From contig JAFGAO010000263.1 in assembly GCA_016933615.1 (NCBI GenBank), positions 1 through 41,947 on the forward strand: a DNA stretch of 41,947 nt, given 5' to 3'. This document shows positions 29,353 to 35,915 of the stretch, piece by piece (position 1 is the stretch's first letter; each line of letters begins with the position of its first letter). The position numbers and the translations under genes were made by a program. The stretch is from Acidobacteriota bacterium (GTDB taxonomy: Bacteria > Acidobacteriota > UBA6911). Below the pieces are notes generated by a model. The model made no database searches and was not told the DNA's origin. It saw only the letters and a program-made list of their open reading frames with translations.

Positions 29353-30942
29353 CTATTTCAGTCCCGCGGCCTTCATGTCCGCATCCCGTTTTGCCCGGAA
29401 TTCCGTGCCTTCTTTCCAGTTCGGGAACGAGTCCTCGTTGCCGAGCCTGCAGCCGATCTGAAACAGCATTTCGAGGTCCTCGACCATGCCGGTCAGGTCC
29501 CAGCCGGGATCGTACTCGTCCGACGGCTTGTGGTAGTGGTTCTCGGTATATTCCGCCTTTTTTTCCAGAGTCCATTTTTCGCCGTGCTCGACATGGTCCA
29601 GTCCCGTGGTCACATAAAGGGCCGGGATGCCCTGCCTGGCGAAGCTGAAGTGATCGGCCCTATAGAAATACCCTTTCTCGGGTTCCGGGTCGGGGCGCAC
29701 GGTCCGGCCCTGCCCGGAGGCGGCCGCATGAACGTAGTCATCCAGTTCGGAATTCCCGTAGCCGATAAGGGTCACGTCCTTCATTTTTCCGTAGATATTC
29801 AGGGTGTCCATATTGATGGCGGCCACCGTCTTTTCGCGCGGGAAAATCGGGTGTTCCCCGTAAAAGTCCGAACCCAGGACTCCCTGCTCCTCCCCCGTCA
29901 CGGCAAGAAAAGCGATGGACCGCGCCGGCCGCGAGGGTAGCCTGGTAAAGGCCTCCGCCAGCTGGATCAAACCCGCGATCCCGGTGGCGTTGTCCAGGGC
30001 GCCGTTGTAAATCTGGTCCCCTTCCAGGGAAGGGTCCATCCCCAGGTGATCCCAGTGCGCCATATAAAAAACAAATTCGTTCGCCCGCGACCGGCCGGGC
30101 AAAACCGCAATGACGTTGTTGGAAACCGCCTGCCCGATCTCGTTTCTCAGGGAGACGGATGCTCTCAGCCGCATCGGGACGGCAGCAAAACCCCGTTTTG
30201 CCGAGTCGGCCTTGAGCCTTTCAAGATCCAAGCCCCCCTGGGAGAAAACCGCCCGGGCGCTTTCCAGTGTCAGCCAGCCTTCGACCGCGCAGCGTGTCCT
30301 GTTCCCGTCTTCGGTGCGCAGCCCGAACTGCCGGCCGCTCCAGCTGTTGCGGACCACCTCCCACGGATAGCCCGCCGGCCCGGTCTCGTGGATGATGAAG
30401 GCCGCCTCGGCCCCCTGGCGCGCGGCTTCCTCGTACTTGTAAGTCCAGCGTCCGTAGTAGGTCATGGCTTTGCCTTTGAACAGGGCGGGATCCCGGGTTG
30501 CAAATCCCGGGTCGTTTACCAGCATCACGACCGTTTTGCCGCGGACGTCGAGCCCTTCGTAATCGTTCCAGCTGTATTCGGGGGCGACAATGCCGTAGCC
30601 GACAAAAACCATTTCGGAATCTTCGAGGGATACGGTCTCCGATTCCCGTCTCGTCGCCACCATGCAGTCTTTGCCGTAGGCGAACGCGCCTGTTCCCCCG
30701 TTTCCCCGGACGGCAAGTTCCGTTTCCGGATCCGTCTTTATGGAAACCAGGGGAACTTCCTGGAAATAACTGTCGCCGTTTCCCGGCGCCAGGCCGAGCC
30801 TCTCGAATTCTCCCCTGATGTATCGGATGGTTTTTTCCTCGCCCCTGGACGCCAGTCCGCGCCCTTCAAATTCATCCGAGGAGACTATTCGGATATGTTT
30901 CGAGAGGTCCTGAACATTGATGCATTCCAGAGCGGATTTCAT
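29353..30942 (-). CDS. M28 family metallopeptidase with PA domain
   Basis: A 529-residue di-zinc exopeptidase. Zinc and catalytic residues are visible: H296 in FYMAHWDHLGM, D317 in GALDNATG, the Glu pair 351-352 in TGEEQG, Asp in AAINMDTLN, and the late His in YHKPSDEYD. An inserted protease-associated domain spans roughly residues 105-215 (DVRGKTVVMLVNDPGF, then FIIHETGPAGYPW). Unlike most relatives, this start (AAGGAG 8 bases upstream) gives no signal peptide: the sequence opens directly with the domain. It would therefore be cytoplasmic unless exported another way. It is last in the leftward TRAP-selenoprotein run, 117 bp behind the UGSC gene. Confidence 0.94.
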   Translation of the reverse strand: MKSALECINVQDLSKHIRIVSSDEFEGRGLASRGEEKTIRYIRGEFERLGLAPGNGDSYFQEVPLVSIKTDPETELAVRGNGGTGAFAYGKDCMVATRRESETVSLEDSEMVFVGYGIVAPEYSWNDYEGLDVRGKTVVMLVNDPGFATRDPALFKGKAMTYYGRWTYKYEEAARQGAEAAFIIHETGPAGYPWEVVRNSWSGRQFGLRTEDGNRTRCAVEGWLTLESARAVFSQGGLDLERLKADSAKRGFAAVPMRLRASVSLRNEIGQAVSNNVIAVLPGRSRANEFVFYMAHWDHLGMDPSLEGDQIYNGALDNATGIAGLIQLAEAFTRLPSRPARSIAFLAVTGEEQGVLGSDFYGEHPIFPREKTVAAINMDTLNIYGKMKDVTLIGYGNSELDDYVHAAASGQGRTVRPDPEPEKGYFYRADHFSFARQGIPALYVTTGLDHVEHGEKWTLEKKAEYTENHYHKPSDEYDPGWDLTGMVEDLEMLFQIGCRLGNEDSFPNWKEGTEFRAKRDADMKAAGLK

Positions 30943-31059
30943 GGCGTCTCTCCTTCCTTCCGATAGGATTGCGGAAAAGGGCGGAACCCTTTGCCGGCAT
31001 TCCTGAAGACATGGATCGGTTTGCCGAGGCGGCGCCCCGCGGAGCCGGACCGCTTGGGA

Positions 31060-32826
31060 TTATGCGCCGGAAGATTCGTATGCTCCGCGGGATTCTTCCG
31101 AACCGGGATCCCTTTTGCCCCGGGCGGCGTCGGATGGCCGCGCCATCCACTTGTCTACCGGGACCGAGACCGTGTGGTCGAGGTCGGAAATTTTCCAGAG
31201 CGGGCTGGTTTCTCCTCCAACCACCAGGACGTTGATCTTTCCCGGCTTGTGGTACGGCGCGATGACGGCATCGTCCGGGAGTTTTTTCCAGTCCGCATAC
31301 GGCTGCACCCCGTGCAGGGCCAGGGGCGTCACCAGCATGTCGATGATGTCGTTGCCCCAGAACTGTCCCGCCGTCATCGTGACGTTTTCGGCGATCCACC
31401 GGCCGACGTCCATGGGGGTCTCGAAGCCCTGGTGCTCTTTCAAATGCCTGGCCAGAATCGGGTCCAGGATCAGGGTGGCGCCGGAATAGAGCGCGGGAAG
31501 CGCCTGCATCTGGAGCCGGACCTCGTCTCCCCAGGAGCGCCTGGAGGCGGCCCCCGTACTGTTGATCAGGTTCCAGCCCCGGAACAGGCTGACGACGCTT
31601 TCTTCCCGCCTGTGGCCTTTCTGCACGTGGAAAGGCTCCCAGACGCTGCGCTCCTCGTTTTCGGCCATGCAGAGGTTGTTGTAGGTGTAGTTGTTGCCCT
31701 GGGATGTCCAGAAAGTCTGTTTGGGCCGGGCGTATCCCCAGAGGATGCTCATCAGGGTCCAGGCGCGCCCGATGACCGCGTTGGCGGGGCTGTAAGGCCC
31801 CAGAGCGCCCATGCCGGAGTTCATGCCGGCCGCCTTCCGTATGGGGCCGTTTACCAGCAGCGCGCTGGTGAATGGAAGCGTCGAGGGCTGGATGGCGGGT
31901 TGCCCGGTCGAGGCGACGGCAAGAAGCACGGGCAGATGCTCCGGTCCGGCCCCGGCCATGACGGCGGCCACGGCAACCGTTTCGACCGTGACCACGAGGT
32001 CTTCCTGGGTATCGACGATCAGGGATTTCCCGACGCGCCTGTCCGGCGCTTGGCCGGTCCCGGCGAGCATCGCGGCGACGCGTTCCTCCGTCGGAAGAAT
32101 GAAGGGCAGCCCGTCGCTCCAGCCGCGTTCCATGAAAACGCGCCGCAGGTTCTCCTCCGTGTCCGGCGCCAGCAGGCGCTCTCTGCGCGGCGCGGGGCGC
32201 ACGACGGCGAGGCTCCTGCTTTCATCCGCGCCGTAGGGCAGGGTAAGCGCTTCGAGCACTTCCTCCACGAGAGGTCTGCCGGTCACGGGATCCCGGCCCT
32301 CGATATATCCGCGCAGGACGGAAGGCGGCATGGACACCACCGGGTGCGGCGTGTACAGGAAGCGCAGCGGCGCGCCGAAAAACGACGTGTCCGCCCGAAC
32401 CATTTCCTGAAACGCGACGGTGGAAAGGGGCGCGGTCGGTATCCCGTACTGTAGCTCCAGGGTGCGGCAGCATCCGGCGACCGCCGTGACGCAGCCCGGT
32501 CAGCCGGCCACCCCGAAAATGACCGCGTCGCCTTTTTCCCCGATCTCCTCCCAGAGGTCTTTGGTGTCGTCCCTGAAGATGAACCCGGTTTTTCGCCGCA
32601 GGACAGTTTTCACCGACGGCATGTTTTCGGCGAACCACGCCTGAAACTGCTTCATGAAAAGCTCGCTGCCCCCGAATCCCTGGTTGACCAGGTAGACCGT
32701 TTTGCCTTCCAGCCGGTGGGGCCGCGGCGCCATGGTCCATGAGGCAACTCCGTTTACGGCCTCATCCGCGACCGGGATGCGGTCGGCTTCCGGGTTCAAA
32801 ACTCGAATCAGGGATTTCTTCGCCAT
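31060..32826 (-). CDS. UGSC-family selenoprotein with UPGC motif (in-frame UGA)
   Basis: The frame opens at ATG 32826 with AGGAG upstream and has an in-frame TGA at 32502-32500. It then continues with clear coding sense for 479 more codons to 31060: 588 residues with Sec at 109. The motif is GDAVIFGVAG-U-PGCVTAVAG, placed like the U-G-S-C redox motif of the UGSC family, so U109 and C112 form a selenenylsulfide-type U-x-x-C pair. The C-terminal part (GWSDGLPFILPTEERVAAML, ALLVNGPIRKAAGMNSGMGA, NNLCMAENEERSVWEPFHVQ) belongs to the domain fused to or next to UGSC modules. It follows dctM in the TRAP cluster. Function is not established; redox chemistry on the imported compound is a guess. An automatic caller would split it in two. 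Confidence 0.88.
32457..32502 (-). promoter_or_regulatory. Candidate bacterial SECIS hairpin
   Basis: Immediately after the UGA (32502-32500), CCGGGCUGCG pairs with CGCACCCUGG (32466-32457): nine pairs around one C-C mismatch. The 23-nt apical part can form a further small GGC/GCC stem with G residues in the loop. Bacterial SECIS elements are stem-loops just 3' of the UGA within the coding region, so position and shape agree. Confidence 0.6.
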
Positions 32827-32955
32827 TTGCCGTGACTCCTTTCTGTCCGGGGAACGATACGGTCTCAGTAAACAAGCAGCAGCCCGCCGTCCAGTGCGGT
32901 GCGTCTATTCTTGCATCCGTTCGGGGCGGTGACAATATTCTTTTGGCTGCATAAA

Positions 32956-34257
32956 TCATTTTCCCAGCATGATGCCGGGGAGCCAGAGGGACAGCTGCGG
33001 GAACCCAACGACGATGGCCAGAAACAGGAGGCAGACCGCCAGGAAGGGAACAACGGATTTCATCAGTTCCGGACTCGGCACTTTGAAAACGCTGCCTGTC
33101 AGGAACAGGTTTATCCCCATGGGAGGCGTGATGAGGCCTATCTCCATGTTCACGACATACCAGACGCCGATCCACAACGGATCGAAACCCATCTGCGTCA
33201 GTATGGGCACCAGGACCGGCACGGTCAGAAGCATGATGGTGATTCCGTCCAGGAAGCACCCCAGTGCCAGGAGGATGAGGTTGACCAAAATCACGATCAG
33301 CCACGGGGAAATGTCGGCGGCTTCTACGGCGTTTGTGATGCCCTCCGACAGGGCGGAGCTTCCGATCATGTAGGAAAAAAACTGCGCCCCGATCACCGTG
33401 ATCATGAGCATCGCATTGACGAGCGCGGCCTCCGTCAGCGCCCGGAACAAGGCTTTCCATCGCATGCCGTACAGGGTGAAAGCCAGGATCAGGACGACGA
33501 AGCATCCGACCCCGGCGGCTTCCGTGGGCGTTGCAATGCCCAGGTAGATTGTGCCCAGAATGGAAAAAATGATGGCCAGCATGGGCCAGATTTTCTTGAG
33601 CGAGGCGAACCGCTCTTTCCAGGCGACCGGTTCCGACGGCAGGCCCAGGGAGGGATTCCGGATGCAGAGTATTACCGGAAGGGCCGACAGCAGGAGGGCG
33701 AGGATGACTCCCGGGATGATTCCGGCGATGAACAGACGCCCCACGGATGCGTTCGTCAGTATGGCGAAAATGATCATGACCGCGCTGGGCGGAATCAGCG
33801 GTCCCAGTATCCCGCCCGCGAGAAGGGCGCCCAGGGCGAAAGGCTTCCTGTAGTTGAGCTTTTCCAGTTCCGGTACGGTGATCTTGCCGACGGCGACGAT
33901 GCAGGGGGCGCTGGCGCCAAGGGCGGCGGCCATCCCGGCTTCGGCCCAGATGGTGGCCGACACCACTCCTCCCGGAACCCGGGACAGCCAGTTTCTGCCC
34001 GCCCTGAAAAGGTCGGCGCCTATGGTCGTTTCCGCGATCAGGCATCCCAGCAGAACGAACAGCGGCAGGGGCGTCCACGCCAGGCTGTACAGAAAATAGA
34101 ATGTCTGGCCGCCCAGCTTGTCGAGCGCGCTCATGCCGAAAAACGCGATGCCGACCAGGATGGAGCTGGACAGAAGGGCCCACGCAATCGGCACCCCTAT
34201 CAGCAGGAGGGCAAGCATGACGGCGATGCACAGTGCTGCGGACGCGTTGTAGTCCAT
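32956..34257 (-). CDS. dctM: TRAP transporter large permease DctM
   Basis: A 433-residue inner-membrane protein with 12 or more hydrophobic segments, the ion-coupled transport subunit of a TRAP system. Family marks include PLFVLLGCLIAETTIGADLF, GGILGPLIPPSAVMIIFAIL, ATPTEAAGVGCFVVLILAF, CFLDGITIMLLTVPVLVPIL and NMEIGLITPPMGINLFLTG. It starts 28 bp after dctQ and is followed, after 129 bp, by the UGSC selenoprotein. The complete set of three TRAP subunits suggests a working importer; the substrate (commonly a carboxylate) is unknown. Confidence 0.96.
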   Translation of the reverse strand: MDYNASAALCIAVMLALLLIGVPIAWALLSSSILVGIAFFGMSALDKLGGQTFYFLYSLAWTPLPLFVLLGCLIAETTIGADLFRAGRNWLSRVPGGVVSATIWAEAGMAAALGASAPCIVAVGKITVPELEKLNYRKPFALGALLAGGILGPLIPPSAVMIIFAILTNASVGRLFIAGIIPGVILALLLSALPVILCIRNPSLGLPSEPVAWKERFASLKKIWPMLAIIFSILGTIYLGIATPTEAAGVGCFVVLILAFTLYGMRWKALFRALTEAALVNAMLMITVIGAQFFSYMIGSSALSEGITNAVEAADISPWLIVILVNLILLALGCFLDGITIMLLTVPVLVPILTQMGFDPLWIGVWYVVNMEIGLITPPMGINLFLTGSVFKVPSPELMKSVVPFLAVCLLFLAIVVGFPQLSLWLPGIMLGK

Positions 34258-34285: not shown

Positions 34286-34813
34286 CTACGATTCTCCGCG
34301 TCCGGCCGGTTTCCCGGCCAGCGCCCGGATGCCCTGGAAAAACTGGATCAGGGCGACGAGAAACAAAATTCCGTAACCGGCCGGTATCAAGGCTTTGACC
34401 GGGAAAAGAGGCTCCGACCAGGCCGAATTGCTGCGCTCCCCGATCCTGAGGGAAAACATCGCGGCCTCCCAGCCTTTCCAGGCCAGAACGGCGCTCGACA
34501 GCAGCGCGAGCAGGGGCGACAGGAGGGCGTTGACGAAGAAGCGGATGCTTCGTGGCATGCGGTTGAGAATGAAATCGCCCCGGAGATGCCGCTGCTGCCG
34601 CTGCACGGCCGCGACCGAAAGGACGAAGCACCACAGAAGCAGCATCATGCTGATTTCATAGGAATAGGGTTCGGGGCTGCGAAACAGGTATCGGCGCGCG
34701 ACGCCGTAGGTTGCGGCAAGCGCCATCATAAGGATCATGACGCCGCTCGCGGCGAGCAGCACCCCGGATATGCGGCCGACGGCGGCCGCGACGCGGCTTT
34801 CTTCGATGCGCAA
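34286..34813 (-). CDS. dctQ: TRAP transporter small permease DctQ
   Basis: A 175-residue membrane protein with four TM helices. The DctQ pattern is GVARRYLFRSPEPYSYEISM, then LLWCFVLSVAAVQRQQRHLR and GDFILNRMP, with a charged tail. It is the partner of DctM. The start is TTG 34813 with GGAGG 9 bases upstream. It lies 49 bp after dctP and 28 bp before dctM, consistent with one transcript. Confidence 0.93.
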   Translation of the reverse strand: MRIEESRVAAAVGRISGVLLAASGVMILMMALAATYGVARRYLFRSPEPYSYEISMMLLLWCFVLSVAAVQRQQRHLRGDFILNRMPRSIRFFVNALLSPLLALLSSAVLAWKGWEAAMFSLRIGERSNSAWSEPLFPVKALIPAGYGILFLVALIQFFQGIRALAGKPAGRGES

Positions 34814-34862: not shown

Positions 34863-35915
34863 TCAGCGGTGTTCGCCGTTGGCCCGGTCCATGATCTGTT
34901 TGATCTTTATCCCCAGCTCTCCCAGGCCGGCGATTTTCCCGTCGATGTACGGCTGTACGATCGATTTCCATCTTTCCCTTTCGGCTTCGGGTACGTCGTA
35001 TATTTCCGCGCCGAGCTCGATCAGGGCGCTGCGGTCCGTCTCCTTCCATGCCCGGACCTGGTACGCGTTCATTTCGTCGCAGGCCTTTACGGCCTCTTCC
35101 ATAAAGATGCGCTGCACGTCCGGGGGCATTGCATTCCAGACGTCCAGGTTGATGTTGTAGGAAAGGAAGGTCGGCTGGGCGTAAAAAACGGTGACGTATC
35201 TGGCCGAGTCGGTGAGCCGGTAGACGATGTCGGACCGCATCGAGTTCAGCACCGCGTCCACGGTGCCCTTGGAAAGGCTGGAGTAGAAATCGGTCCAGAA
35301 AACGGTAACGGGCGCCGCTCCCATGGCGGTCGCCAGCGCCGAACCCTGGGGATTCCCCGTGCCCACCAGCAGCCCTTTCCAGTCCTCCAGCGTTTTGACC
35401 GGCCGTTTGGATATCAGTTCCTGCGCGCCCGTGGTGTAGGCCGCAAGCCCCTTCATGTTCAGGTGCTTCTCGAAAATTTCCCGGCTGAGCAGCTCCAGGA
35501 GAGGCTGCGCGGCGGCGACGTTGGCCTCGATGCTGTCGTAGGACATCGGATACTCGGCCAGCCCCCTGTGGAGCCCCTCAAAAATACCTATGCCGACCAA
35601 GGACATTTCCACCGAACCCAGCCGCACGGCATCGTAGGTTTCGGGAACCTTCACCATCGTTTCGCCGGGAAATACTCTGACCTCGTAGGCGCCGGCCGTT
35701 CTCCGCTTGACGGCGTCGGCGAATTTTTCGGCATTCAGGGTAAGCTCGTCTCCCGGGGGATTGGGGATGGCCAGCCTTAGGGTCTTTTTTCCCGCCGGTC
35801 CGGAGGATGGCGATCCCGCGCCGGTTTGCGGCGGGGAGCAGGAGGCCGTGTTGAGGACGGCACAGATCAAGAGAATGGACAGGAAGGCGGGCGTGTTGCT
35901 TTCTGAAATTGTCAT
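34863..35915 (-). CDS. dctP: TRAP transporter substrate-binding protein DctP
   Basis: A 350-residue periplasmic binding protein. The N-terminus has a hydrophobic segment ending in LNTASC, a plausible lipobox, so it is probably lipid-anchored. The mature protein shows the family pattern: LRLAIPNPPGDELTLNAEKF, AVRLGSVEMSLVGIG, then VKTLEDWKGLLVGTGNPQGS. The conserved ligand-contacting Arg position around MRSDIVYRL and a C-terminal helix-rich end are present. It is first of the leftward cluster, so transcription probably starts in the 70-bp gap before it. Substrate is not predictable from sequence alone. Confidence 0.94.
   Translation of the reverse strand: MTISESNTPAFLSILLICAVLNTASCSPPQTGAGSPSSGPAGKKTLRLAIPNPPGDELTLNAEKFADAVKRRTAGAYEVRVFPGETMVKVPETYDAVRLGSVEMSLVGIGIFEGLHRGLAEYPMSYDSIEANVAAAQPLLELLSREIFEKHLNMKGLAAYTTGAQELISKRPVKTLEDWKGLLVGTGNPQGSALATAMGAAPVTVFWTDFYSSLSKGTVDAVLNSMRSDIVYRLTDSARYVTVFYAQPTFLSYNINLDVWNAMPPDVQRIFMEEAVKACDEMNAYQVRAWKETDRSALIELGAEIYDVPEAERERWKSIVQPYIDGKIAGLGELGIKIKQIMDRANGEHR

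Follow-up and report, generated by a model that had tools for sequence, protein, structure and literature searches.

UGSC-Family Selenoproteins and the Acidobacteriota Locus

UGSC-containing selenoproteins, and a fusion of the UGSC domain to a second domain called "Unknown_1," were reported from ocean metagenomes in 2008, and that report suggests a likely thioredoxin-like fold (Zhang and Gladyshev, PMC2398784). A 2026 review places the UGSC family under NF041046 among families whose functions are largely uncharacterized (PMC13188914). In D-proline reductase, the selenocysteine (Sec) of PrdB is proposed to attack the alpha carbon of a substrate that the PrdA pyruvoyl group holds in place, giving a selenoether intermediate (PMC3091704). 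Here we analyzed a 41,947-nucleotide stretch of DNA (contig JAFGAO010000263.1, hereafter the window) from an Acidobacteriota bacterium of the UBA6911 lineage. The source assembly (GCA_016933615.1) is an incomplete metagenome-assembled genome (MAG), 82% complete in 298 contigs. A 588-codon gene at 31060-32826 on the minus strand contains an in-frame UGA at codon 109, and it is highly probable that the gene both encodes a selenoprotein read through this UGA and belongs to the UGSC family.

The predicted protein matched the Pfam UGSC model (PF24696) with 56.4 bits (cut-off, 25) over residues 28-168 (32323-32745, minus strand), a region that spans the UGA, and by this match there is very little doubt of its membership in the family. 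The narrower NCBIfam model (NF041046) gave 43 bits, under its cut-off of 125, which makes the protein a divergent member by that model. When the two halves were searched separately, the 108-residue half matched the Pfam model with 27.9 bits and the second half alone had no Pfam or NCBIfam match. A C-terminal domain extends over about residues 212-563 (31138-32193, minus strand), for which Pfam and NCBIfam scans found no family. The first-pass annotation, made from the nucleotide sequence, had called the protein UGSC-type; the family assignment stands, but the redox motif here is U-P-G-C (Sec109 and C112) and not literally U-G-S-C. The CxxC-like positions that it had proposed further downstream were not recovered, as no conserved one was seen in the window protein beyond C112.

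The protein resembles the UGSC/Unknown_1 fusion, as the 2008 report describes it, in the position of its Sec-containing UxxC motif, in the exchange of Sec and Cys and in the fusion of a second conserved domain; the C-terminal domain is likened to Unknown_1 by description, not letter by letter. It differs from the known UGSC family in its motif and in its score under the NCBIfam cut-off. Since both UGSC proteins and the fusion were described in 2008 (PMC2398784), the window protein is a fresh member of an already known family.

A Single Gene Extends Across UGA109

The frame that opens with the ATG at 32826 has a single in-frame TGA at 32502-32500 and meets its next stop only after 479 further codons, as the first-pass annotation had described. 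An AGGAG resembling a Shine-Dalgarno sequence, read from the sequence, lies nine bases before the ATG (32836-32840, minus strand). Length is weak evidence for a gene here because a 487-residue open frame runs antisense to it (30991-32454), and open-frame length was rejected as coding evidence. Homologous coding sequence was found on either side of the UGA. The protein is 84% identical to that encoded at a related locus (L011), which keeps TGA at codon 109. Codon differences between the two were mainly synonymous before the UGA (29 synonymous and 21 nonsynonymous in codons 1-108) and after it (123 and 75 in codons 110-588), including the stretch directly after the UGA (8 and 3 in codons 110-140). 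It is this conservation that decides the matter and that confirms, by comparison of sequences, a single gene.

Gene calling that stops at UGA gives a 108-residue product and a 447-residue product, and both sizes agree with those given by the first-pass annotation; its description of the second as lacking a start was wrong, as an ATG is present at 32403 (codon 141). That ATG could start the second half, and the two domains are separate genes in some Acidobacteriota, so one could read UGA109 as a true stop between a short protein and a separately started one. This is very improbable. The 447-residue frame would omit C112 because its ATG is codon 141, and yet the stretch between the UGA and that ATG contains C112 and is conserved as protein. 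Relatives have Cys at this position and no stop, none of 43 aligned homologs truly ends at the UGA, and the small UGSC gene of the split forms itself keeps an internal UGA. A single gene read through UGA109 remains the preferred reading.

Conservation of the Selenocysteine Position

A scan of genome contigs yielded 34 loci encoding relatives. An alignment of 43 relatives, whose rows we chose from 61 frames (copies in L067, L068, and L069 were among those left out), had P12, residue 109, and C112 among its invariant columns; all 43 matched Pfam UGSC, and the column of the UGA codon (32500-32502, minus strand) was occupied by UGA or Cys. In a larger set of 102 frames, some rows of which represent one genome fetched twice, the codon-109 column held UGA in 84, a Cys codon in 11, Met in one and no residue in six, much as the first-pass annotation had anticipated in looking to homologs for Sec or Cys. 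Judging by the record titles, the genomes that share the UGA at this column belong to several phyla. All 11 Cys forms came from records titled Betaproteobacteria, Burkholderiales, Comamonadaceae, Xenophilus, Variovorax, or Ramlibacter.

A C-x-D-G-x-C-G-like tail was present at the C-terminus of 17 of the 84 Sec frames (found in L013-L025, L036, L037, and L039), of none of the 11 Cys frames and not of the window gene. The tail may act as a mobile dithiol arm for reduction of the Sec site. Adjoining UGSC-family genes in which Ser or other residues replace Sec, partly in tandem arrays, were seen at L118, L119, L120, L121, and L122 (genomes G008, G005, and G009).

Probable Decoding of UGA109 as Selenocysteine

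The machinery for Sec insertion presupposed by the first-pass reading was found in the genome of the window. Matches to selB (382.6 bits), selA (560.9 bits), and two selD genes (373 and 356.5 bits) were all over cut-off, and one tRNA-Sec with anticodon UCA was detected. The two selD genes (L060 and L061, on contigs C97 and C203) have one in-frame TGA each. A candidate second tRNA-Sec on contig C14 was rejected, as ARAGORN calls it tRNA-Ser(UGA). Among relatives, 15 of the 16 genomes with the Sec form had a selB match over cut-off, as did 6 of the 11 with the Cys form; the test took 28 of the 34 loci, the other six carrying isolate names already among the 28, and L020 was left out. The Cys form is therefore not simply the result of loss of the machinery. 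As evidence in its own right the presence of selB across relatives was uninformative, with 52 of 60 relatives having the gene.

A hairpin of the selenocysteine insertion sequence (SECIS) type follows the UGA at 32475-32486 on the minus strand, where bases 17-20, counted from the T of TGA, pair with bases 25-28 around the apical loop GGTC (32482-32479). The pairs form in 91.7% of cells in an alignment of 18 related sequences (those remaining of 21 with a like motif after three repeats were left out). Pair 18-27 joins two third codon positions and shows compensatory change: 12 of these close relatives have G-C there, five A-U, and one G-U. The covariation score was 0.355 compared to 0.177 after shuffling, and none of 500 shuffles scored as high. 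Folding was better than that of synonymous variants (p < 0.05) in 28 of 79 distinct Sec forms (the 84 minus five that were repeats, too short or contained N) and in none of the 11 Cys forms, and pair 18-27 was present in 66 of the 79 Sec forms and three of the 11 Cys forms. The window hairpin also folded better than its synonymous variants (z -2.7, p 0.014). A SECIS-type signal is seen across the relatives and is weak in the single sequence of the window.

Several observations weigh against this interpretation. Two pairs had changed at both of their bases, a number that 136 of 500 shuffles also reached, and a hairpin register slid by -3 still pairs in 88.9% of cells with a covariation score of 0.142. 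The stem of the window hairpin is of ordinary length (a fraction of 0.77 of synonymous variants reach the same), and its folding is not unusual among dinucleotide shuffles (z -0.6). One Sec-form genome, L013, had no selB over cut-off, perhaps through incompleteness. An own-genome copy on contig C253 of G000 (L068, 10574-13735, minus strand) has UGA at the Sec column and no Cys at +3 (SWUGAATS). Homologs with neither Sec nor Cys, which the first-pass annotation had held to speak against its reading, do occur among distant paralogs of the same genus: in a further 28 frames, selected in part for their lack of TGA, the column held UGA in 11, Ser in nine, Thr, Asn, Gly, Ala, Leu, and Met in one each and no residue in two, so that 15 of the 28 are of this kind. 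The support for Sec109 is at the sequence level, and on that footing UGA109 very probably encodes Sec.

With an incomplete MAG of many contigs as the source, the UGA might instead specify a different amino acid through codon reassignment, or we might be dealing with a pseudogene or an assembly error. We consider this exceedingly improbable, as the same UGA column occurs in genomes titled as several phyla, together with a SECIS signal and full Sec machinery. Translation of the gene as a selenoprotein through UGA109 is, from these comparisons, very probable. SelB and tRNA-Sec would insert Sec at UGA109, aided by the hairpin that follows it, and the predicted product would have a Sec-Pro-Gly-Cys redox site in its N-terminal UGSC domain and a fused C-terminal domain of about 350 residues.

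Similarity to GrdB and PrdB and a Possible Mechanism

Around UxxC, the UGSC domain has distant similarity to GrdB/PrdB-like proteins. The comparison set consisted of 13 proteins from other Acidobacteriota whose match to PF07355 covers its last part; they are PF07355-like, not authentic GrdB or PrdB. In an hhalign comparison, 68 columns of the UGSC profile aligned with this set, Sec on Sec, at a probability of 86 (E 4.8e-6, score 45.6), and on both sides U-P-x-C leads into a helix and a G-I-P-T-like strand. The probability was 85 when 95 UGSC sequences were used. With U and C masked in both profiles the score was 30.3, compared to 26.1 for the best of 60 column shuffles, and with the GrdB-like set reversed it was 16.0.

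Alternatively, in line with the 2008 suggestion, the UGSC domain could be a thiol oxidoreductase or peroxidase of the thioredoxin-like kind, and the fused protein could reduce peroxides or serve in redox repair. Thioredoxin-type proteins commonly have a UxxC motif, and the neighboring genes of relatives (110 frames) include three matches to FAD and three to pyridine-nucleotide oxidoreductase families. Against this, hhalign gave a probability of 0.9-1.1 with six of the seven AhpC/TSA proteins found in the own genome, a small set, compared to 85-86 with the GrdB/PrdB-like proteins, and we regard the thioredoxin-like alternative as unlikely, though with so few proteins compared a remote thioredoxin relationship is conceivable.

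The relationship to GrdB and PrdB also has evidence against it. Masking U and C lowers the hhalign probability to 19. The match of the 13 proteins to PF07355 is weak and confined to its last part (23-53 bits for the matches listed over the cut-off, two being lower), and their motif has UGA in eight, Cys in two and neither in three. The Pfam scan reported only UGSC for the window protein and the 43 relatives, with no match to PF07355 in these or in the own genome. Unlike GrdB and PrdB, the window protein carries a fused C-terminal domain, and that domain had no match to the GrdB-like set. A search of the PDB with the 43-row profile gave no match. On balance, the profile similarity and the analogy to D-proline reductase make GrdB/PrdB-like chemistry in the UGSC domain a tentative proposal, with chances somewhat below even, and suggest reductive chemistry with Sec as the nucleophile.

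If the UGSC domain is remotely related to the GrdB and PrdB reductase subunits, the Sec109 selenolate would probably displace a leaving group from a small activated substrate by attack on one of its carbons. Sec109 would then be released as a Se-S bond with C112, which would be reduced by a thiol system, and the C-terminal domain would probably bind or activate the substrate. A link between UGSC and GrdB/PrdB, if right, turns a functionally uncharacterized family into a testable enzyme class.

Multiplication of the Family within the Genus

Pfam UGSC matches numbered 16 in the own genome and 10 to 27 in nine other genomes of the genus, so that all 10 examined genomes had 10-27 each; four of 50 further relatives in the phylum had UGSC, with one match each. 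Not all of the genus matches carry TGA (positions are known for the matches listed). In the own genome, 16 frames have UGA at the codon-109 column, and in G006 (98% complete) UGA was present in all 18 fetched copies, with 19 UGSC matches listed. Reciprocal best matches in G006 were found for 12 of 17 own frames (69-99% identity), which indicates that the copies are old. Orthologs of the window gene in G001, G004, G006, G008, and G009 are 74-84% identical to it. The own-genome and G006 versions of one paralog (L064 and L114) share 98.9% identity, compared to 69-81% for the other 11 reciprocal pairs; such near-identity points to a recent transfer or to contamination of a bin.

A 2022 review puts the biggest complete prokaryotic selenoproteome then on record at 39 (PMC9312934); beside that maximum, G006 holds at least 18 UGA-bearing genes of the UGSC family. 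Gene callers that stop at UGA split such proteins, and the multiplied selenoprotein family of the genus is thus easily mis-annotated.

A signal-peptide-like start was seen in 13 of 16 UGA forms of the own genome and 16 of 18 in G006 (29 of 34 in the two genomes), as judged from N-termini and hydrophobicity read by eye and script rather than with a signal-peptide program. The window protein, L070, L101, and L102 are without such a start, and L066 is truncated. The lipobox that the script flagged for the window lies upstream of the window ATG, and in the window ortholog L083 a hydrophobic stretch likewise lies upstream of the likely ATG. A Tat-like RR motif was present in eight rows from other genomes.

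A UGSC-family gene with four in-frame TGA codons and a lipoprotein-like start was observed at L067 (1103-2983, minus strand, own contig C14) and at L117 (3970-5817, minus strand, contig C289 of G008). It has a tandem TGATGA (U-U-G-C) and, near the C-terminus, a TGA-GTC-TGA (U-V-U), both kept in the two species, with a hairpin after each UGA pair. A fifth TGA in L067 precedes the likely start. Between the two genes 399 codons are identical, 135 differ synonymously, and 79 differ otherwise; past the last UGA these numbers are 17, 4, and 2. Among the matches listed in a scan of 297 phylum genomes, which scored at most four candidates per genome, a match with four or more TGA codons occurred in two genomes, those of L067 and L117. 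This paralog thus seems to contain four codons for Sec that both species have kept.

The many paralogs would serve different substrates, and the majority would act outside the cytoplasm. In its fullest form, the proposal is that the genus built a large private set of reductive selenoenzymes, each a GrdB/PrdB-like Sec domain with an unknown substrate domain, at 10-27 copies per genome, mostly exported and acting on different substrates, with one copy having four Sec (Sec-Sec-Gly-Cys and Sec-x-Sec sites); taken as a whole we hold this to be possible, though rather unlikely. The literature searched contained no paper that names this expansion or connects UGSC with GrdB; work by Haft and Gwadz (2023) and by Haft and Tolstoy (2025), outside that scope, may cover them. 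The expansion, the export and the GrdB/PrdB link may be what a specialist would find new.

Genomic Neighborhood and Domain Architecture

Immediately upstream of the selenoprotein gene, also on the minus strand, are genes for a tripartite ATP-independent periplasmic (TRAP) transporter: the large permease DctM (32956-34257), the small permease DctQ (34286-34813), and the solute-binding protein DctP (34863-35915). A gene for an M28-family peptidase (29353-30942, minus strand) lies downstream. The transporter may import the substrate in this species, although supply of the substrate by the TRAP system is doubtful. A conserved operon with the transporter and peptidase genes was rejected: among the loci searched the arrangement is kept only at L011 and L082, apparently one genome, which weighs against such a role. 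A common partner gene was likewise not found. Pfam tallies of neighbors (111 of 119 frames for the own genome and G006, eight being left out, and the 110 frames at loci of relatives) gave mixed oxidoreductases and transporters, with no family having more than five members among the 25 families shown per tally; the neighbor frames are greedy picks, some of which may be false.

The separation of the UGSC and C-terminal domains into adjoining genes in some Acidobacteriota is illustrated by L124 (5274-6986 and 4506-5186, both minus strand), where a separate partner gene for the C-terminal domain adjoins a small UGSC gene that has a UGA within its frame. The start of the partner gene was read as thioredoxin-like (motif D-C-P-T-C), and a split like that of L124 was present in L092, L093, and L094.
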